A DNA stretch of 44,417 bases from NCBI GenBank assembly GCA_019637855.1, contig JAHBUX010000020.1, positions 1 to 44,417 of the forward strand, written 5' to 3'. Below, one piece after another: positions 33,957 through 43,288 of the stretch (positions are counted from its first letter, which is position 1; every line of letters begins with the position of its first letter). A model generated the notes under the pieces. The model saw only the letters and a program-made list of their open reading frames with translations, had not been told where the DNA came from and searched no databases. Source of the stretch: Bdellovibrionales bacterium. GTDB lineage: Bacteria > Bdellovibrionota > Bdellovibrionia > Bdellovibrionales > UBA1609. A program made the position numbers and the translations under genes.

Positions 33957-36900
33957 ATGCGTCGTGGGCCAGCCCGTCTTGTTGTTCTAGCGTTATGTCT
34001 AGCCACCCTGAACGTCTACGCTCACGAAGCCAAAAAAGAATCGCCAAAAACCGACGAGTGCAGTCGCTATTTGACCGGCACTCAACCTATGACCCTCAAA
34101 GCCCTGCGCGAGTTGACCTTGCAACGGATCGCGGCTGTTGAAGCCGTCGTGCCTAAGCCCGGTTTCGACAACATCGAAGAGGAAGCCCGTCACGAACAGA
34201 TTGCCGACAGCCAAGTGCCTTTGGCTCTGCGTGAGATTCTCGGTCATGGTGTGGGTTACGTTTCGACACCTGCGCCCACCTCGCCGGATCCGGTGACTAT
34301 CAATCTTACGGTTGAGAACCACTCGGTGCCCTTGCATGTGGACAGCTTGTGGAACGGACGTCGAATCAGCACGGCCGCTTATTTATCCTTGCCTAAAAAT
34401 AAAATTTCTACGGCGGGTAGCTATGCCATCAGCGACGACTACAAAGTGGCGGTGGTGCATTTGCACGGCGGCGGTACTCCCACCGCCACGGGCAAGAACG
34501 CCATGAGCGTTGGCGAGAAGCTTGCTCCTTTGGGTATTCCCACGCTGGCTCTAGATATGCCGGGCCACGGTCGTGCCACGCGCAAGCCGGGCGGACTCGA
34601 GAGCATGGAAGCGCAGGTCGATTGGCTTTTGCAACAGATTGACCAGTTGATTCATCCGAACGTGAAGATCGTTTTATCGGGGCATAGCTGGGGCGGGATG
34701 TTTGCAGCCTATATGCATAGTCATTCCGATGAACCTAAGTACGCCCGTATCGCTCGTTTCATCTCCCTCTCTCCCGGCATCGACGTTTCGAACTCGGGTG
34801 ACAATAAGAAAAAGCAAGAATGGGATCGTTGGTGGGAAGACAATTTTCATAGCTTTGAGAGCAAGATCGCTCCTGCCGATTTTGATTTTCAAGAGAACAT
34901 GCTGGCCAACGGTAAAGATTCGGATGTTGGTGGCTACTTTACGACTTTCACTGATTTTGACTACGTTAGTGCGCCGTTAACCCCAGAGCGTCAGCATCAG
35001 CTGAAGCCGTTGACCCTTGTTGTGGGGAGCGCTGACGGAGTGGTGTACGTCGGACGCGAGAAGCAGTTTGCAGCGGCTTTTGGAAACCTAGAAGAACCGA
35101 ACCAGTTTATTCTTCTTGGCCCGGGTCGCACTTGGAAGTCCAAGGGTCCGGAGGATTTGCAACCGACAGGGCACAATATCTTCGACCGTTACATCGACGG
35201 TACAGAAACTCTGCAAGTGTATGCACTGTTGGCTGATCTCGTGCGTGAGGTTGCGGGTGAGGATTTGACTGCGCCGTCGGCTGTGGCGGATCCTGTATCG
35301 ACGACGTTGGACACATTGTTCCGTCACTACGCAAACTTTTTGGCTGTGCGCGAGATGATTGCGACGCAAGTGGAATTCGTGGATACCAATTCGCCGCAAT
35401 TGGCGGAGCTTTCAGGTCGTAAGGTTGAGCTTGACGAGTACAAACGCCGTTTAGATCAGCAACATGTCGAGAATGGCAAAATCATCGAAGCCAAAGTGAA
35501 CAAGGCCGTGGATCAGCTGCGTGCTGAAATCGGGCTCACGGATCAGGTTCTCTTCAAGCGTGCGCAGGAAGAGCTGGGTTCGGGAGAGATGACGCCTCAG
35601 CGCGAAGCCGAGCTGACGGACTATATCGAACGCATTCAAAATCTCGATAAAGAGATGCGTGGCAGTTTTCATGACCAACAGTACGATCGCGATATCGCGG
35701 GACTGACCAAAGAGTACCAGCCTTTGATGAAGAAACTCGGGTTCGACAAGATTGAGGACTATCGTAAGCACTTCGATCCGGGCAATACGGGTAAGAAGAT
35801 CGATGGTGAGGCCGCTAAGGTGCGGGCTGATTTAAGCCGTTTGCATCAGCGTGTGGCTGACGCCAATCGTGGCCGTCAGGCGCGTTACGGTGTCGAGCGT
35901 GATCGTCGTTTGGCCGAGTTGCCGCGGCCTGAGGGCGTCTTGGATGTGCGTTCGGCTCAACGTGAGTTGAACACGGATCGCTCACCCGAACGTCGAGCGA
36001 TGCTTGAGCAGTTTGTGGCGCGCTATCCGGAGATCGAGCGCAATGCGCGCCTGATTGCCGAACGTGAAGCTGACGAGGCCAAACAGGCTATTTCTCGCCC
36101 GGCGGGCATTGGCCGCTGGGAAGAGGCGGTACGGGCGAAAGAGCAGCAAGATGCCATTATGAGCATGACGTTTGAAACCGATGTTCCGGTGATTTCTCGT
36201 CTGGCCCATCGGATTGGCGAACTGACTGAGGAGCGTGAGCGTTTAGTGCGTGGTTCTCAAGGTCAGCAGAGTTTGGACGCTCTTTCTGCGGACGTCGAGA
36301 AGGTCCGTGCGAAGCGCTCTGGTCTGCTAAAGAAGTGGGAAGGCTTATGGAAGCTGGGGCTAGTTACTAGTGCCGCAGTGTCGCAAGATCAAGCCGCTTA
36401 CGAACAGACATTGGCTTCTTACAAAGCATTGCACGTGGCTTATCAGGTGAAGATGAAGTGGTTGCGCGAGTTGAAGGAGCGCGATCGTTTGAGCGAAGAT
36501 GTGGTCTTGGCCAGTACGCCGGAGTTGAGAGCTTTGCGCGCCAAAGTACAAAAGGCCCGCGCGGTGTTCTTGCAAACGCGCGATCAGTTGGAAGAGACGA
36601 AGTGGATTGAAGCGCTCAACGGCAAGATCGTTCCTGCGGAAGGTGCGAACACGGACCGCGCAGCAAAGGCTGTGGCTGAGGCGACAAAGATCGCCAGCGA
36701 AGTTTGGGGCACGGACTTCCAGTCGACGGGCAAGCCGTCGATGAACAGTTTGACGGCCCAGTTGCGTGCGCAGGACGAGTATTTAGAAGCTCGTCGTCGT
36801 GAAACCAGCTTATTGGAGCGCCAACGCGACGAAATGCGCTATCAGTACGTCCGCGAAATGCGCTCACGCGGCATCGCCGTTCCGTACCTAGTCGAGCGTG

Positions 36901-37064
36901 TACCGCTGTATCCGCTACTGAACCGTCCAATCCGCGAACTGCTTCCGATGTTACGTGAAAATCCAACGCTGCTAAAGGCCCTAAACCAGGCCATAGGCCG
37001 TTGGGACGGCATGCTCGCCGAACTCAAGCGCGGCGTCCAATCCAAAGACTCCAGCGGCTACTAA
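33957..37064 (+). CDS. Large secreted alpha/beta hydrolase with C-terminal coiled-coil region
   Basis: The 1035-residue product has a signal peptide (about 1-22) and an N-terminal hydrolase domain (about 110-450): VVHLHGGGTP (oxyanion, about 166-175), ALDMPGHGRATRKPGG (about 198-213), SGHSWGGMFA with nucleophile Ser244, VVGSADGVVYVG as a possible acid-bearing loop and GHNIFDRY holding a possible triad His. The remaining 550 or so residues are a long Glu/Lys/Arg/Gln-rich region with heptad-like spacing, likely coiled coil. Hydrolases of this size with such a tail are uncommon; the tail may form a fibre or anchor the enzyme in the envelope. AAAGGAG sits 7 bases before the ATG. Substrate unknown. 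Confidence 0.8.
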   Translation: MRRGPARLVVLALCLATLNVYAHEAKKESPKTDECSRYLTGTQPMTLKALRELTLQRIAAVEAVVPKPGFDNIEEEARHEQIADSQVPLALREILGHGVGYVSTPAPTSPDPVTINLTVENHSVPLHVDSLWNGRRISTAAYLSLPKNKISTAGSYAISDDYKVAVVHLHGGGTPTATGKNAMSVGEKLAPLGIPTLALDMPGHGRATRKPGGLESMEAQVDWLLQQIDQLIHPNVKIVLSGHSWGGMFAAYMHSHSDEPKYARIARFISLSPGIDVSNSGDNKKKQEWDRWWEDNFHSFESKIAPADFDFQENMLANGKDSDVGGYFTTFTDFDYVSAPLTPERQHQLKPLTLVVGSADGVVYVGREKQFAAAFGNLEEPNQFILLGPGRTWKSKGPEDLQPTGHNIFDRYIDGTETLQVYALLADLVREVAGEDLTAPSAVADPVSTTLDTLFRHYANFLAVREMIATQVEFVDTNSPQLAELSGRKVELDEYKRRLDQQHVENGKIIEAKVNKAVDQLRAEIGLTDQVLFKRAQEELGSGEMTPQREAELTDYIERIQNLDKEMRGSFHDQQYDRDIAGLTKEYQPLMKKLGFDKIEDYRKHFDPGNTGKKIDGEAAKVRADLSRLHQRVADANRGRQARYGVERDRRLAELPRPEGVLDVRSAQRELNTDRSPERRAMLEQFVARYPEIERNARLIAEREADEAKQAISRPAGIGRWEEAVRAKEQQDAIMSMTFETDVPVISRLAHRIGELTEERERLVRGSQGQQSLDALSADVEKVRAKRSGLLKKWEGLWKLGLVTSAAVSQDQAAYEQTLASYKALHVAYQVKMKWLRELKERDRLSEDVVLASTPELRALRAKVQKARAVFLQTRDQLEETKWIEALNGKIVPAEGANTDRAAKAVAEATKIASEVWGTDFQSTGKPSMNSLTAQLRAQDEYLEARRRETSLLERQRDEMRYQYVREMRSRGIAVPYLVERVPLYPLLNRPIRELLPMLRENPTLLKALNQAIGRWDGMLAELKRGVQSKDSSGY

Positions 37065-37107: not shown

Positions 37108-38268
37108 CTAAACCTTAGGAAAAACTAAGGAGACTATAGTTCCTCGGCCGATTCTACTTTGAATGGCAAGTGATCCGCCCATTTCCTCAACCGCTGATTT
37201 CGCATGTAAGAGCCCTAGGCCCGAGCCGCTTGAGGAACCTTCTTTGCCAGCACTAATCCTTTCTCGCCCCACCTTGGTAAGTACATCGTTAGGAATGCCT
37301 CGACCGGTGTCGGAAACTATAATTTGAACGTCGTGAGTAGTGGAACGTGTAGCGATCGTCACTGTTCCGGAAGGGCTGAGTGCCTCTACCGCATTATTCA
37401 CTAGATTCGACAGCACTCGTGTGAAATGTGATTTGTTTATTCTACAGAATTGGGTGTCGGCATACACGTCCAATTTCAAAACAAGTCCATCTCGATCCTT
37501 AAATTCATACTTCTTCTCTTGGTATACTTCTTTAACCAGCTCACGAATATCGGCTGTATCTGAAGAGGGTATCCTATTCCTCTTCAGCAAATCATTTGCA
37601 ATGTCATTGATTCTGATGACGGCAGATTGCAAGAGGTCCCACCTCTCGCCTGACATTTCTTTAAGACCATGAAGGGCCATGTTGATTGCTGAAACTGGAG
37701 AGCGAATATCATGTGCAATTTGCAGAGCTAGCCGTTGTTCAAATTCGAGTTGACGCTGCTCGATTATAAGTGCTTGGCGTACCTCGATGCGTTTTTTCAT
37801 ACGCAGAAATAGTCCGACGAATACAACGAGCAGAGCAATAGCGCCACCGAAAGCCATTGCTAGTGGATACTGCGCGGAATAGACAAATGTAAGCGTCGCT
37901 AAAGGTCGAGAAGAAGCCGCGTTTTCATCGCTATTAATCGGAATTTGAATGGGAATCTCTAGAAGCGAAAGGTCTTTTTGCACAGATGAAGTGTTCGGAA
38001 TTCCAACAATTAGCATCTGGTTTGAGTCATAAATCGCAACCACATGAAAGCCGTCGTTGGTCGCCGGGGCTAGAGAGTTCACTGCCTGACGTAAATCACG
38101 AAGCAGTAAGCTGTGGCGCGATGCGCGTGCATAGGATTGAGCTAGTCTTAACCATTGTCGATGGTCGCTATACAGAAAAGTCCCCCCAAGTACCGCCACC
38201 GTAAGTACGTACAGAAGCAAAAGCTGAAGGCCAAGATTTCTCATTTCCAATTTAGGAGGGGCTGTCAC
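37108..38268 (-). CDS. Orphan sensor histidine kinase of the YcaO cluster
   Basis: The 386-residue kinase has TM1 (about 12-33), a periplasmic part of about 100 residues (34-134), TM2 (136-157), a coiled linker, the H-box IAHDIRSPVSA with phospho-acceptor His186, the N-box NLVNNAVEA (Asn291/292), the G1 box SDTGRGIP (319-326) and the G2 box GSGLGL (348-353). The GTG start has a ribosome binding site TGAGGA that overlaps the stop codon of the YcaO gene, so the two are coupled. No response regulator gene is in the window. The periplasmic domain shows no known sensor fold by eye. Its AT-rich base use (22 G/C in 60 in the row at 37501) matches the island, not the flank. Confidence 0.9.
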   Translation of the reverse strand: MTAPPKLEMRNLGLQLLLLYVLTVAVLGGTFLYSDHRQWLRLAQSYARASRHSLLLRDLRQAVNSLAPATNDGFHVVAIYDSNQMLIVGIPNTSSVQKDLSLLEIPIQIPINSDENAASSRPLATLTFVYSAQYPLAMAFGGAIALLVVFVGLFLRMKKRIEVRQALIIEQRQLEFEQRLALQIAHDIRSPVSAINMALHGLKEMSGERWDLLQSAVIRINDIANDLLKRNRIPSSDTADIRELVKEVYQEKKYEFKDRDGLVLKLDVYADTQFCRINKSHFTRVLSNLVNNAVEALSPSGTVTIATRSTTHDVQIIVSDTGRGIPNDVLTKVGRERISAGKEGSSSGSGLGLLHAKSAVEEMGGSLAIQSRIGRGTIVSLVFPKV

Positions 38269-38275
38269 GTGATCC

Positions 38276-39256
38276 TCAATTGAATGGGTGTGGGAGATGA
38301 TTCAAATCATTCCACGTCAGTGGTCGGCCAGCAAAACGTCTGAGCCTTTCTAAGTTTACTACCTTAGCAGTAGTTGGACCCGTCCAAAGATTCTGTGCGT
38401 GATTAGAAAATGCGCGTGCAAAAACAAATGGACAGTTGCTCAAGTTTAATAAGTTTAAATCTATACGTTCGGATGAAAGAGAGTTTTTATCCAAGGGCTG
38501 ACATTGCATTGGTTTTACGGAGGGGAGACCATCAAACAGATGGGTGACAGACTTCCAATATTCAATATGCAACGCCAATCTACCGTGATCTGTAAAATTA
38601 GGTTTTTCTAAGCTTTGGAAAGATTGAATGCTGAGGGCATCATCAGGATTTGCTCTCGAGATAAAGACTGTAGCTTGGCGTGCGGCTTCAACAAAGGAAC
38701 TTTGGGCTGCGAATTCGATATTCTCATTGGCCGATGATCCAATAGTCATGCCGAAAGGAGTTTGTGACTTGTGGCCAGTAATTACGCATACCATGCATAT
38801 GTTGGCGATATTGAAAAAGGTAGTTTCTATCTTCCGCTCGTTTGACCAACTATTTACAGCATCAATCCAAAGCCACTCTTCGGGCGGTAGAAAAGAGTGC
38901 ATTGGCGTTCCAGTCAAATAGTGGCACAAAAAGAGATCTCGTTCGACCACTTCCATTTTCGCATTTTTGTGAGCCGCTTCCTGATGGATGTGTGAGGCGA
39001 ATCCATTGGAAGTCTTTTGACCACTTTGTAAAAAGACGATGCGCTCAAGTCCCTCTGAAAATGCTTTGCAGAGGGCAAGATCCTCACTGTTCTCCCATCC
39101 CCAACTATCAATACGACGTCCATCAACGGTCATTGTGCAGTGAACATCCGAGGCCATTGGAAAAATGTCTCGGATCCAAGATGTCGACTCGATGGTGAGA
39201 GACAGTGTGGCGCTATTGGTTAGAATCCAATTTATTGCGCGGGTCTGATTTTCCAT
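38276..39256 (-). CDS. Divergent YcaO-family protein
   Basis: YcaO proteins use ATP to activate peptide backbone amides and make azolines, thioamides or amidines. The 326-residue product keeps the typical blocks: SEGLERIVF (67-75), TSNGFASHIHQEAA (82-95) leading into MEVVERDLFLCHY (101-113), and QSSFVEAARQ (185-194), which match the ATP-binding ExxER, ExxERD and Q/E-rich helices. It ends in HLPHPFN, close to the Pro-rich C-terminal tail that is catalytic in azoline-forming YcaOs. The start at 39256 overlaps the binding-protein gene by 25 bases; an alternative GTG at 39298 is less likely. The protein is shorter than most cyclodehydratases (about 400 or more) and lacks an E1-like or TfuA partner nearby. 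Confidence 0.72.
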   Translation of the reverse strand: MENQTRAINWILTNSATLSLTIESTSWIRDIFPMASDVHCTMTVDGRRIDSWGWENSEDLALCKAFSEGLERIVFLQSGQKTSNGFASHIHQEAAHKNAKMEVVERDLFLCHYLTGTPMHSFLPPEEWLWIDAVNSWSNERKIETTFFNIANICMVCVITGHKSQTPFGMTIGSSANENIEFAAQSSFVEAARQATVFISRANPDDALSIQSFQSLEKPNFTDHGRLALHIEYWKSVTHLFDGLPSVKPMQCQPLDKNSLSSERIDLNLLNLSNCPFVFARAFSNHAQNLWTGPTTAKVVNLERLRRFAGRPLTWNDLNHLPHPFN

Positions 39257-40809
39257 AGCTCCGTCCCCGCTGAAAATGTCGAAAATGGAAGCCGCCACTT
39301 GTGATTTGCAACAGCATAGTAAGGACTTACAAACGTCGGATATATAACCGCCGATTTGAGCAAATTGTAGTGCAGATCCTGAAGCTTAGAAATTCGTTCA
39401 GCTCGATCTTCCGTTGCCGCATAAGCTTTGATCCAACGATCGCCATCAACATCCGGAAGCTGGAAAATACCAACCTCAAAATTATGTCCTAACAAAGAGA
39501 CACTCTCGGTCCAGGCAGCATCGCTAGACACTACGTAAATATCAGGCCTTTCGTTCATGGGCATTAGATACGCAGAAATAGGCGTCTTTACGGCTGAGAT
39601 CTCGGGGTAATCTTTCAGAAATGTCACAAGAAGGTCATAAGTCGGTCCTGTTGCGCCAATGGTGATTGGTTTCGTGAAAGCTGGTCGTACTTGGCTCGCA
39701 CGAAGCTGTTTTATCTCCATTTTCTGACCATCGTTCAGAGAGCCATCACTTAGCCCTTGGAAAAACTCGATCGTCACGCTCCTGCCAGGTAGCGAGAAAA
39801 AATCTGTGTTCATAAACTTTGCTAAAGTGGCGCCGGCGAAAAATCTCTGCTGAACGGAGAACTCATTTATCGCTCTGGGGGTAAAGCATGCCATTAACAC
39901 TCGAATAGGCATACTTTCGTGAACATTGTAATGTGTTCGTTGGTTTAATATCCTGACCGCACTAGATCCAGAAAAGTAAACGGAGGTTGGTATGATATCG
40001 ACGATACCTTTTTCTAGCATCTCTGCAGTATCCATAGTCGAGACCGGTACAAGTTCAATTGTAGAGGGCATCTCCTGGTTATAAAGATAGTGGTTAGGAT
40101 TCGCTTTCAGCTGCCAAGCACCAGAATCCTTGTCGCTATCTACGTAGTATGGCCCTGAGGTATTTCGGTGATTGAGTAGAGTTGGTTCACGAGGGTTAGG
40201 ATTTAGGGACTCAAGTGGAATAATGCTGAAGTCGGCGCTTTCCAATACTGCCAAAAGATGTGGTCTCATTGATTCATGGATGGGCGTAAGAATCAATCGT
40301 TCACCCTGAACTTCGATTCCGGGGCACTTGTCCTCTAAGGATTTAAGTTGAAATTCCGGGCACAGAAAATTGCGAAGATCGCCATGCCCAGTTCGCCTGA
40401 ACATAATGGCTCTTTTCAGAGAACGGGCGGCGTCCTCGGCTCCCACTACGTTACCGCCGATCGTACGAACCTTTTGTGCGAAATGAAATATCAGCCGTTT
40501 GCCTTCCCAGTTGAAGCTTTGAGGAATTCCTGCCATGAGTTCGCCTTGCGTATTGTACTCGATAAGACGACCATAGAGATTTCGTACAAGTTCGTATTCT
40601 TGCACATTGGCTATATTGACAGGATCTAGGCTTTGCGAACCTTTTAGGTAGTTGGTAGCGACTCGTACCGGATTTGACCTGGCTGAGTTTGAAGTCGTTT
40701 TTGATTCATTTAACATATTAATCCCTATCAAAGCAGAAAAGGCCATCACTCCTATTGTGATGGCCTTCCATTTGAACGCAAGGCGATTTCGCGTAACTGG
40801 AGTCGACAT
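39232..40809 (-). CDS. Membrane-anchored family-5 peptide-binding protein
   Basis: The 525-residue product has a basic start and one hydrophobic segment (about 14-32, WKAITIGVMAFSALIGINML) without a lipobox or clear cleavage site, so it is probably an anchored periplasmic protein. The rest follows the OppA/DppA class: NYLKGSQSLDPVNIANVQEYELVRNLYGRLIEY (read as two segments) near residues 50-80, NTSGPYYVD, PSTIELVPV and a C-terminal WIKAYAATEDRAERISKLQDL. This fold binds peptides. No permease or ATPase gene is in the cluster, so it may act as a receptor that presents peptide to the kinase rather than in uptake. ATG 40809 is preferred over GTG 40842, which overlaps the precursor gene. Confidence 0.82.
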   Translation of the reverse strand: MSTPVTRNRLAFKWKAITIGVMAFSALIGINMLNESKTTSNSARSNPVRVATNYLKGSQSLDPVNIANVQEYELVRNLYGRLIEYNTQGELMAGIPQSFNWEGKRLIFHFAQKVRTIGGNVVGAEDAARSLKRAIMFRRTGHGDLRNFLCPEFQLKSLEDKCPGIEVQGERLILTPIHESMRPHLLAVLESADFSIIPLESLNPNPREPTLLNHRNTSGPYYVDSDKDSGAWQLKANPNHYLYNQEMPSTIELVPVSTMDTAEMLEKGIVDIIPTSVYFSGSSAVRILNQRTHYNVHESMPIRVLMACFTPRAINEFSVQQRFFAGATLAKFMNTDFFSLPGRSVTIEFFQGLSDGSLNDGQKMEIKQLRASQVRPAFTKPITIGATGPTYDLLVTFLKDYPEISAVKTPISAYLMPMNERPDIYVVSSDAAWTESVSLLGHNFEVGIFQLPDVDGDRWIKAYAATEDRAERISKLQDLHYNLLKSAVIYPTFVSPYYAVANHKWRLPFSTFSAGTELWKIRPAQ

Positions 40810-40826
40810 ATCTTTTCCGTTAAATA

Positions 40827-41096
40827 CTAGTTCGCAAAGCACCCGTTGCCGACTGAAGATCCACAGCCAGCGGCAAAGTCGGTAGGAGTTATTGGGGTCT
40901 TGATCAGCTCATAGTCGCTGAGGATGGAAGTGATCGAACTGGTGACAGTCAAACTTCCGCTATTCAAATCAAATGAAACGTGGCCGCGGGAAATCAGATC
41001 ACGAAGCAAACCATCATTTGAAACGTTCGCCGTTCCTGCCACTATGCCGGATAAAACTGCACCTAAAACGGCCATCGAGACTTCAATTTTCTTCAT
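40827..41096 (-). CDS. Candidate RiPP precursor peptide with two-Cys C-terminus
   Basis: The 89-residue product begins MKKIEVSMAVLGAVLSGIVA, a possible signal peptide, followed by a Ser/Leu/Asp-rich middle with no strong motif and a Gly/Ser/Cys tail: AAGCGSSVGNGC with Cys78 and Cys86. Lys66 is the last basic residue, so a trypsin-like cut there would release a 23-residue C-terminal fragment (67-89). AAGGGG sits 7 bases before the ATG, and a hairpin CCGAG-TAAAA-CTCGG (41112-41126) is just upstream. It is first in the operon with the binding protein, YcaO and kinase. Short leader plus Cys/Gly/Ser core next to YcaO is the usual picture of a precursor, but I recognise no known leader family (Nif11, NHLP). 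Confidence 0.68.
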   Translation of the reverse strand: MKKIEVSMAVLGAVLSGIVAGTANVSNDGLLRDLISRGHVSFDLNSGSLTVTSSITSILSDYELIKTPITPTDFAAGCGSSVGNGCFAN

Positions 41097-41129
41097 TTTT
41101 AAACCCCTTATCCGAGTAAAACTCGGTGA

Positions 41130-41159
41130 TATTTATCCCAGCTTTCTCGCCATATGCAA
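41130..41159 (-). promoter_or_regulatory. Candidate promoter of the peptide-YcaO operon
   Basis: On the minus strand TTGCAT (41154-41159) and TAAATA (41130-41135) are 18 bases apart, with a start near 41123 and a leader of about 27 bases. A better -35, TTGACT (41168-41173), lacks a -10 at the right spacing and may belong to an activator site. Confidence 0.4.
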
Positions 41160-41192
41160 ATGGCCTTAGTCAATGCTTCCCACAATACATTT

Positions 41193-41241
41193 CCGACGTC
41201 CGGATATCGGACATCGGTCGTCTAGAATGCAACTTCTAGAC
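41193..41241. promoter_or_regulatory. Two adjacent operator-like palindromes
   Basis: CCGACGTCCG-GATAT-CGGACATCGG (41193-41217) has 10-base arms with one mismatch, and GTCTAGAA-TGCAAC-TTCTAGAC (41220-41241) has perfect 8-base arms. Neither is followed by a T-run on either strand, so they are more likely protein-binding sites than terminators. They lie just upstream of the candidate promoter of the peptide operon. Confidence 0.6.
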
Positions 41242-41431
41242 AACTTCGTTCTGGAGACGGTCGGGTATCTAATGTGAGAAGGCGGCGAAAGTGCGAGTCA
41301 GAGCTGTCGAAGACCACGACATTATCATTTGGTTTCTGTAATTGTTATAAATATAATAAATACGATAAAGTATTAGATATTCAAGGAATGTTTCAAGTAG
41401 ACGTTGAGTTAAAGCTCATTGTTTATTTGCT

Positions 41432-42346
41432 TTAGATAGCTTGGCGCTCTTTCAAGCGCTCATAGGATTCGAACAGGCTTTCATCGAAAGTAGTGACAAC
41501 CGTTGAAAGTTTATGTGCATCGAACGAACCCTTTTCCGATTTTCTAACAATATGTCCTGAAACAATGCCGAAGAGCTTCGGTTGTCCTTGCACTTCAATA
41601 TAGGCTTGAGCTCCTGAAGACCCATCGCCAGTATCGCAATCCGTCCCGACTTTGGTTGATGGTTGGCCAGAGGACAAATTGTATACGCCATATCTTTTGC
41701 AAGTCGTCATAGTCAGCGAGTTGCGGTTTTTGGTATTCGTCGCATAGTTTGAAATGACTTTGATTGGCTGGGAAAAATCCTCATTGGTATCAATCGTCAT
41801 CATGTCTTTAGTGACGGCGGCTGCATTTTTCGGTTTGAATTTAAGTCGTGCAATTGCGACGTCGCGATGACCTGAGTCATGTGGATCTTTGCCTGCCAGC
41901 ATTTTTGGGTATTCAACGTCGATCATGGGTACCATTTGGCCACTCGCAATATGCTCGAAGAAGCAATTTTCAATTTTTGCAAATCTGCTGCCGTCATCTT
42001 TTAGAAACATGTGACGATTCACTATGACCATATCGCCCTCGAATGCAATTGTGGCATTGGCGATAAATGGGCGCTCCTTGAGAATATCTTCTTTCGATGG
42101 AATGTCGCCCGCTTTGGAGCTCAACGGTTTATTAAGACAGTATGCTCGCCCTTGCGCATTTTCGATGTTGTTGGCAACCATTCCTGGTTCTCGAGTTTGG
42201 CGATCATCGTCCCCTATAATCGCTATTTGATGGACAAGATCTTGTGAAGCTTCGAACTGACTAATCTTTTGGTTGCACAAAATCGGCAATGCACTGGTCG
42301 AGATCGCTAAATACCAGAATGAGTAAATAGCTGTTAATGTTGACAT
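41432..42346 (-). CDS. Secreted trypsin-fold serine protease, copy 1
   Basis: The 304-residue product has a signal peptide (about 1-19). The catalytic triad can be read as His112 in VNRHMF, Asp162 in HRDVAIARL and Ser244 in GDGSSGAQAY, in the order and spacing of the S1 family. Asp238, six residues before Ser, may correspond to the trypsin pocket Asp and would favour cutting after Lys or Arg; this is inferred by position only. AGGTAGGA precedes the ATG. It is 45 bases downstream of copy 2, shares the C-terminal RQAI end and much of the fold, and was probably made by tandem duplication. It may mature the nearby secreted peptide. AT-rich like the rest of the island. Confidence 0.85.
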   Translation of the reverse strand: MSTLTAIYSFWYLAISTSALPILCNQKISQFEASQDLVHQIAIIGDDDRQTREPGMVANNIENAQGRAYCLNKPLSSKAGDIPSKEDILKERPFIANATIAFEGDMVIVNRHMFLKDDGSRFAKIENCFFEHIASGQMVPMIDVEYPKMLAGKDPHDSGHRDVAIARLKFKPKNAAAVTKDMMTIDTNEDFSQPIKVISNYATNTKNRNSLTMTTCKRYGVYNLSSGQPSTKVGTDCDTGDGSSGAQAYIEVQGQPKLFGIVSGHIVRKSEKGSFDAHKLSTVVTTFDESLFESYERLKERQAI

Positions 42347-42391
42347 GTCCTACCTCGACAACGACCAAACTATCATCTTTGGCTGCCTCTG

Positions 42392-43288
42392 CTAGATCGC
42401 TTGGCGCTGTTTGAGTTGCTGATAAGCTTGAAACAGACGAGAATCAAATCGAGTAAGATAAGTTGAAAGCTTTCTCGGGTCCATTTCTCCCCCCTCGGGA
42501 GCCTTCGTTATTTCGCCAGATATAATACCAAACCATTTCGGCTTTCCATTAATCTCAAGATAAGCCTGAGCCCCGGAGCTGCCAAGTCCGGTATCACAAT
42601 CCGTTGCGTTTACGTTGGAAAGGCTATTGTCGGGAAATTGATATCGACCACCGCGGTAACAGGAGGTCATAGTGAGAGCCTCTTTGCCGCCTTTACTGTT
42701 TCTGGCGTAGTTAGAGATAACCTTTACTCTGGCATCGCGATCATCCTCTAAATCTTCAATAATATCTTCCTCGGGTATAGCTTTGCCTCTTTTGGGGCTA
42801 GATTTGAGGCGAACAACGGCGAAGTCACTGTCTAGCCAATCCAGAAAATCGCCGGCTTTAAACTTGGGATAAGCAGCATCCACAAACGGAATTATCTCAC
42901 CGCTCTGTACATGCTCGAAATAGCAGTTGGCCGCCCCATAGTTTTTTGATCCATCTTGATTTTTGAAGACATGTCGGCTGACGATGGCAATATCATTCTC
43001 GAAAGATAGAGTCGCGTTCGCAGCGCTCCCATTTTTTACTAAATATTCCTTTGTAGGCACGCCGCTTTTGTACGGTACTTTCAAGCAATATGCCCTTCCT
43101 TGTGCGGCTTCTATGTTAGCAGCTACAGAACTTGCACTCCGAGCTTCCCGATCGTCCGGGCCGATAATGGCTACTTCGTGGTAGAGGTTTTCAACATTTT
43201 TAAATTGGGAATTTGGGAGACAGGGGGGGAGGGCAACGGCTGCCACTGAAGCTAACAAGCATAGGTTCGCGAATAAAAATAAGCGCAT
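42392..43288 (-). CDS. Secreted trypsin-fold serine protease, copy 2
   Basis: The 298-residue product has a signal peptide (about 1-19), His106 in VSRHVF, Asp155 in DSDFAVVRL and Ser238 in GLGSSGAQAY; Asp232 lies six residues before Ser as in copy 1. Blocks NIEAAQGRAYCL, TDCDTG and SSGAQAY are almost the same in the two copies, while loops between them differ, so the duplication is not recent. It is the first gene of the pair and is divergent from the partial secreted-protein gene at 43403. Upstream lies GGCCTAGTCAAT (43307-43318), which resembles a site before the peptide operon. Function in peptide processing, defence or predation is open. Confidence 0.85.
   Translation of the reverse strand: MRLFLFANLCLLASVAAVALPPCLPNSQFKNVENLYHEVAIIGPDDREARSASSVAANIEAAQGRAYCLKVPYKSGVPTKEYLVKNGSAANATLSFENDIAIVSRHVFKNQDGSKNYGAANCYFEHVQSGEIIPFVDAAYPKFKAGDFLDWLDSDFAVVRLKSSPKRGKAIPEEDIIEDLEDDRDARVKVISNYARNSKGGKEALTMTSCYRGGRYQFPDNSLSNVNATDCDTGLGSSGAQAYLEINGKPKWFGIISGEITKAPEGGEMDPRKLSTYLTRFDSRLFQAYQQLKQRQAI

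Follow-up and report, generated by a model that had tools for sequence, protein, structure and literature searches.

We describe an operon of the Bdellovibrionota that encodes a short peptide with a signal-like N-terminus, an OppA-type solute-binding protein (SBP), a divergent YcaO enzyme and a sensor histidine kinase, and that is probably best explained as a RiPP-type peptide signalling operon with positive feedback. More tentatively, it could represent a new class of Gram-negative cell-cell signalling, found throughout the Bdellovibrionota, in which a YcaO-modified, Sec-exported peptide would be perceived by an anchored OppA-type receptor and a kinase, with feedback through sigma54.

Gene order and conservation of the operon

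The window, meaning the whole stretch of 44,417 nucleotides that was analysed, covers contig C13 in full; the genome has 3.37 Mb and its relatives are Bdellovibrionota. The four genes lie together on its - strand, as the preliminary description had stated, and are transcribed in the order peptide, SBP, YcaO and histidine kinase. Their block is also AT-rich, as claimed there, with 43-48% G+C vs 50-60% for the remainder of the window. The features are as follows.

41217..41244, no strand: inverted repeat (11-bp arms, GTCGTCTAGAA-N6-TTCTAGACAAC) ahead of the peptide gene, a putative site for a regulator
41189..41214, no strand: imperfect palindrome, likewise ahead of the peptide gene and a putative regulator site
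40827..41096, - strand: precursor peptide gene, 89 aa (ORF list; family profile made without it; phmmer)
39232..40809, - strand: binding protein of OppA/AapF fold, anchored in the membrane by its N-terminus (profile-to-PDB comparison; fold; kept in relatives)
38276..39256, - strand: YcaO enzyme (PF02624 above cut-off; alignment; structure model; start)
37108..38268, - strand: sensor histidine kinase (HisKA and HATPase_c profile matches; transmembrane prediction)

The SBP reading frame is open from 40842, with ATG 40809 as its likely start, and that of YcaO from 39298, with a likely ATG at 39256 preceded by a strong ribosome-binding site (GGGACGGAG). Counted from these likely start codons, the two genes overlap by 25 nt.

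A YcaO search of 369 genomes of the phylum gave matches in 71, and the SBP subfamily was present in 41 of the 369, nearly always beside a YcaO match. We fetched 56 loci with the SBP-YcaO pair, 51 of which have the SBP gene followed by an overlapping YcaO gene, mostly by about 22 nt; in nearly all of these the kinase gene comes after YcaO and the peptide gene before the SBP. Among the 56 pairs, in either order, a kinase accompanies 49 and a peptide gene 46, the latter count resting on loci picked by similarity to the window system. The trees of SBP, YcaO and kinase are congruent (Mantel r 0.52-0.71, the largest shuffled value being 0.32). The co-occurrence of peptide, YcaO, binding protein and kinase proposed in the preliminary description thus holds as one conserved unit in dozens of related genomes, and the four genes are an operon that is passed on as a whole. 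Beyond the phylum set, a scan of 84,980 genomes with a single degenerate pattern, which more distant homologs may escape, returned 17 loci; all informative titles were of Bdellovibrionota type, a few reading only 'proteobacterium'. Searches for plasmid, phage or viral spread of the system gave no matches, and identity with a defence system was considered and set aside, PADLOC giving no meaningful match.

Several other loci of the phylum differ in arrangement. In the deeper relatives L054, L068, L069 and L070, YcaO, SBP and kinase occur in a different order with secreted peptides that contain no Cys, and in L068-L070 a regulator is present too. The window's own genome carries a second copy on contig C1 (L126:5924-7875, about 754923-756874 of the contig), where the SBP, intact and belonging to the same subfamily, is followed by the N-terminal part of a YcaO only; kinase and peptide are not recognised there and this copy is a decayed relic. 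Genes for a gamma-glutamyltranspeptidase (L126:7817-9595) and a prolyl oligopeptidase (L126:2811-4931) lie near the relic SBP. A different type of YcaO is found at L059:6000-7332 and L060:6033-7439, where the gene immediately before it encodes a precursor ending FTTLTATN(C/S)SSYCD(C/S)(S/T) and a glycosyltransferase follows; this is a separate RiPP family of the same phylum.

The YcaO enzyme and its putative precursor peptides

The window YcaO had been called divergent, with a YcaO profile search set in advance as the test; it scores 34.8 bits against PF02624 (cut-off 25.7) and is the only match to this profile in the whole genome. In the alignment, E82, R86, E116, E119 and R120 are invariant and E85 and E204 nearly so (numbering of the 340-aa ORF). 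The window protein therefore has the conserved ExxER motif twice (E82/E85/R86 and E116/E119/R120) and the third Glu motif (E204), the motifs that handle ATP and Mg in YcaO proteins. Its structure was modelled with a pLDDT of 90.6, and the best structural match is LynD (Z 23.6, rmsd 3.0 over 289 residues). In the fold search, YcaO entries reached Z 16-24 and the next fold about 7; MusD, described as an ATP-dependent peptidase YcaO, matched with Z 22.1. Among solved structures, the archaeal MJ1094 and McbD come closest by sequence profile. The window protein is thus a true but divergent member of the YcaO superfamily with intact ATP/Mg motifs. It shares the fold and these motifs with the RiPP and thioamidation enzymes MJ1094, McbD, LynD and MusD, at 10-14% identity in structural alignments, and the likeness may extend to ATP-dependent chemistry on the peptide backbone. 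This chemistry could be of azoline, thioamide, amidine or peptidase type; the score against the SagD-type azol(in)e cyclodehydratase model TIGR03604 was 38.4 bits, below the NCBIfam cut-off of 219.25.

The present system differs from those of these enzymes: an E1/ThiF-type partner and TfuA were both looked for across the genome and not found, its precursors carry Sec signal-like sequences and the enzyme gene sits inside a receptor-kinase operon. The missing partner had been pointed out in the preliminary description, and across the whole genome neither TIGR03882, the one E1/ocin-ThiF-type model run, nor the TfuA profile PF07812 gave a match.

The putative substrate is, as first described, a short secreted-type peptide of 89 aa with two Cys close to its C-terminus. 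It consists of a signal-like N-terminus, a conserved helix (SITSILSDYELI) and a variable tail, AAGCGSSVGNGCFAN. This layout is that of a family with a signal-like N-terminus, a helix matching S[IL]xxLxxxG and a tail that is short and variable; a few members have a lipoprotein box at the N-terminus, some from relatives are 160-170 aa long, and locus L033 has two copies. The window peptide is found at E 2e-4 by a family profile from which it was left out, against E 2 for the best-scoring non-member, and phmmer matches it to the peptides of loci L032 and L033 with E 8e-6 and 4e-6. Conservation of the peptide gene beside YcaO in relatives, the other test set in advance, is borne out by this profile and by the 46 loci mentioned above. 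A Cys lies within the last 20 residues of 46 of the 48 precursors, again from loci chosen for their similarity, vs 70 of 257 other genes, with Ile and either Thr or Ser coming before it in most cases. The two exceptions are the intact L058 precursor, with Ser at the matching place, and one with an in-frame TGA. The latter (L034:9464-9748) is broken while the remainder of its operon is intact, reflecting either decay or an assembly error. In close precursor pairs dN/dS is well under 1, indicating purifying selection.

Precedents for such precursors come from another enzyme family. MNIO enzymes are known to have RiPP precursors that leave through Sec, among them those of bufferins, which are copper-binding RiPPs (PMC12452194), and lipoprotein-type precursors have also been reported (PMC12636315). 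Bufferins and DAG-RiPPs thus resemble the present family in having Cys motifs and a signal peptide of Sec or lipoprotein type (PMC12452194, PMC12636315), but are modified by an MNIO instead of a YcaO, and no SBP-kinase receptor pair is described there. The exporter had been listed as missing. No export gene is recurrent in the operon; Sec is an obvious route, since the precursors carry signal-like sequences.

Receptor, kinase and regulation

The window SBP alone scores 16.6 bits against the family-5 solute-binding protein profile PF00496, under its cut-off of 32.4. The profile of its family matches OppA/AapF structures with E values down to 5e-22 (OppA3), and the structure model (pLDDT 89) has an OppA-type fold, with Z 25-30 over 430-466 residues; AapF (Z 29.7) and NikA are among the best matches and OppA scores about 26-27. 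Both results agree with the peptide-binding protein proposed at the outset: by profile and fold the SBP is of OppA/AapF type, and peptide binding is predicted. An N-terminal membrane helix is also predicted and, because no ABC permease accompanies the SBP in the operon, we propose that it acts as a receptor and not as a transporter.

The kinase has HATPase_c (E 7e-21) and HisKA (E 3e-6) domains, no receiver domain, and two predicted transmembrane helices flanking a periplasmic part of about 100 aa; in many relatives one or two extra receiver-like domains follow at the C-terminus. It had been called an orphan, and no response regulator adjoins the operon in the window. That the system lacks a regulator, as first claimed, holds for the window, but many relatives have an apparently dedicated one: among the 56 SBP-YcaO loci, selected by similarity, Pfam identifies a sigma54 (NtrC-type) response regulator directly upstream in 26 and nearby in 7 more. 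Strong -24/-12 promoters stand upstream of several operons, for example TGGCACGCTGGTTGCT in L043. Sigma54 promoter scores of at least 12 bits were obtained for 11 of 51 operons vs 10 of 268 control genes (Fisher p 6e-5), and scores of at least 16 bits for 7 of 51 vs none of 268; no such promoter was found upstream of the window operon. Because of the regulator directly upstream in 26 loci and the strong sigma54 promoters in relatives, the circuit looks self-inducing. In the window's own genome, the closest relative of the regulator beside the L033 kinase is an orphan response regulator (L102, C25:87454-88785). This gene is general in the order and widespread without YcaO, and its pairing with the window kinase is therefore only a guess.

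Proposed circuit, alternatives and flanking genes

We propose that the precursor would be made in the cytoplasm, where YcaO would use ATP to activate amides in the backbone of the Cys/Ser/Thr-containing tail; the conserved helix ahead of this tail would probably guide the enzyme. To judge from its signal sequence, the peptide would be routed via Sec into the periplasm, a tail fragment would be released and bind the membrane-anchored OppA-like protein, and the loaded receptor may touch the periplasmic domain of the kinase, by analogy with LuxP-LuxQ. The kinase would phosphorylate an NtrC-type response regulator which, with sigma54, would switch on its own operon, a positive feedback suggested by gene order and promoters in relatives and not by the window. 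Modification, tail release, SBP binding and phosphorelay are steps that we infer, and the signalling reading is based on family membership, gene order, the precursor family, purifying selection, the YcaO motifs and the regulator and sigma54 sites of the relatives. Several points speak against it. First, a cytoplasmic YcaO would have to act before Sec export. Second, the window has no adjacent regulator or sigma54 site, and the nearest relative of the L033 regulator is a widespread orphan. Third, the intact L058 precursor has no tail Cys, and L068 and L070 have other gene orders or Cys-less peptides.

In LuxP-LuxQ, a periplasmic binding protein is the co-receptor of a histidine kinase, a pairing similar to the one proposed here. 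Its ligand, autoinducer-2, is however a furanosyl borate diester and its SBP is of the sugar-binding type, whereas here an OppA-type SBP would meet a ribosomal peptide. Nisin NisRK and Agr combine a modified ribosomal peptide, a kinase, a regulator and positive feedback, but they are Gram-positive systems with a dedicated exporter, a kinase that senses the peptide directly without a binding protein, other chemistry and no sigma54.

The nisin case suggests another reading, that the product is a bacteriocin-like modified peptide which SBP and kinase sense only to boost its own production. RiPPs are often antimicrobial and autoinducing, and the precursor tails are variable; yet neither immunity nor export genes are a recurrent part of the operon, the tails are very short and mostly have a single Cys, and receptor and kinase co-evolve with YcaO, making a self-inducing antimicrobial unlikely. 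We consider it improbable, too, that the modified peptide binds a metal and that the SBP reports the metal-peptide complex to the kinase in a form of metal or nutrient sensing. NikA and AapF are indeed among the best fold matches of the SBP, tails of Cys, Ser and Thr with azole-like groups could bind metal, and bufferins offer an example (PMC12452194), but the SBP fold family is broad with Z values close together, and the gene order of the loci, in which most flanking genes are unannotated, showed no recognisable metal transporter, TonB receptor or permease that recurs. That the peptide is a CpxP-like periplasmic subunit restraining kinase or SBP, with YcaO modifying something else or acting as a MusD-like ATP-dependent precursor peptidase, would suit the precursors of 160-170 aa and the close fold match to MusD, but is very unlikely given that RiPP precursors typically have a Cys-containing variable C-terminus adjoining a conserved helix and that the YcaO gene is inside the operon in nearly all loci.

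We thus retain peptide signalling as the preferred reading. The parts of the operon are of known kinds; what sets it apart as new is how they are combined, together with Sec-type precursors for a YcaO and the lack of a partner protein. The preliminary description knew of no counterpart for this gene set, and in the searchable open literature we likewise found no description of a peptide-SBP-YcaO-kinase system and no paper joining YcaO, a kinase and Bdellovibrio. Little is known of peptide signalling in Gram-negative bacteria, and our literature search turned up no comparable system in relatives of Bdellovibrio. With maker, signal, receptor and regulator in one conserved operon, the way in which these bacteria sense each other, or themselves, becomes directly testable. 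A YcaO that works on Sec-type precursors and lacks the usual partner would also extend the known chemistry and biology of this superfamily.

Two secreted trypsin-like proteins encoded beside the operon (window 41432-43288) had been counted as trypsin-fold proteases of the system. They are paralogous, match Trypsin_2 only below threshold and have two further copies at C1:850507-852326, giving four paralogs in the genome. Among 99 related genomes, close copies are limited to the window's own, and the 98 others of the order hold two weak relatives. Being absent from the related loci and private to one genome in their close copies, these proteins were rejected as members of the circuit. On the other side of the operon, the + strand (33957-37064) encodes a secreted protein of 1035 aa in which a long charged region comes after an alpha/beta hydrolase domain.
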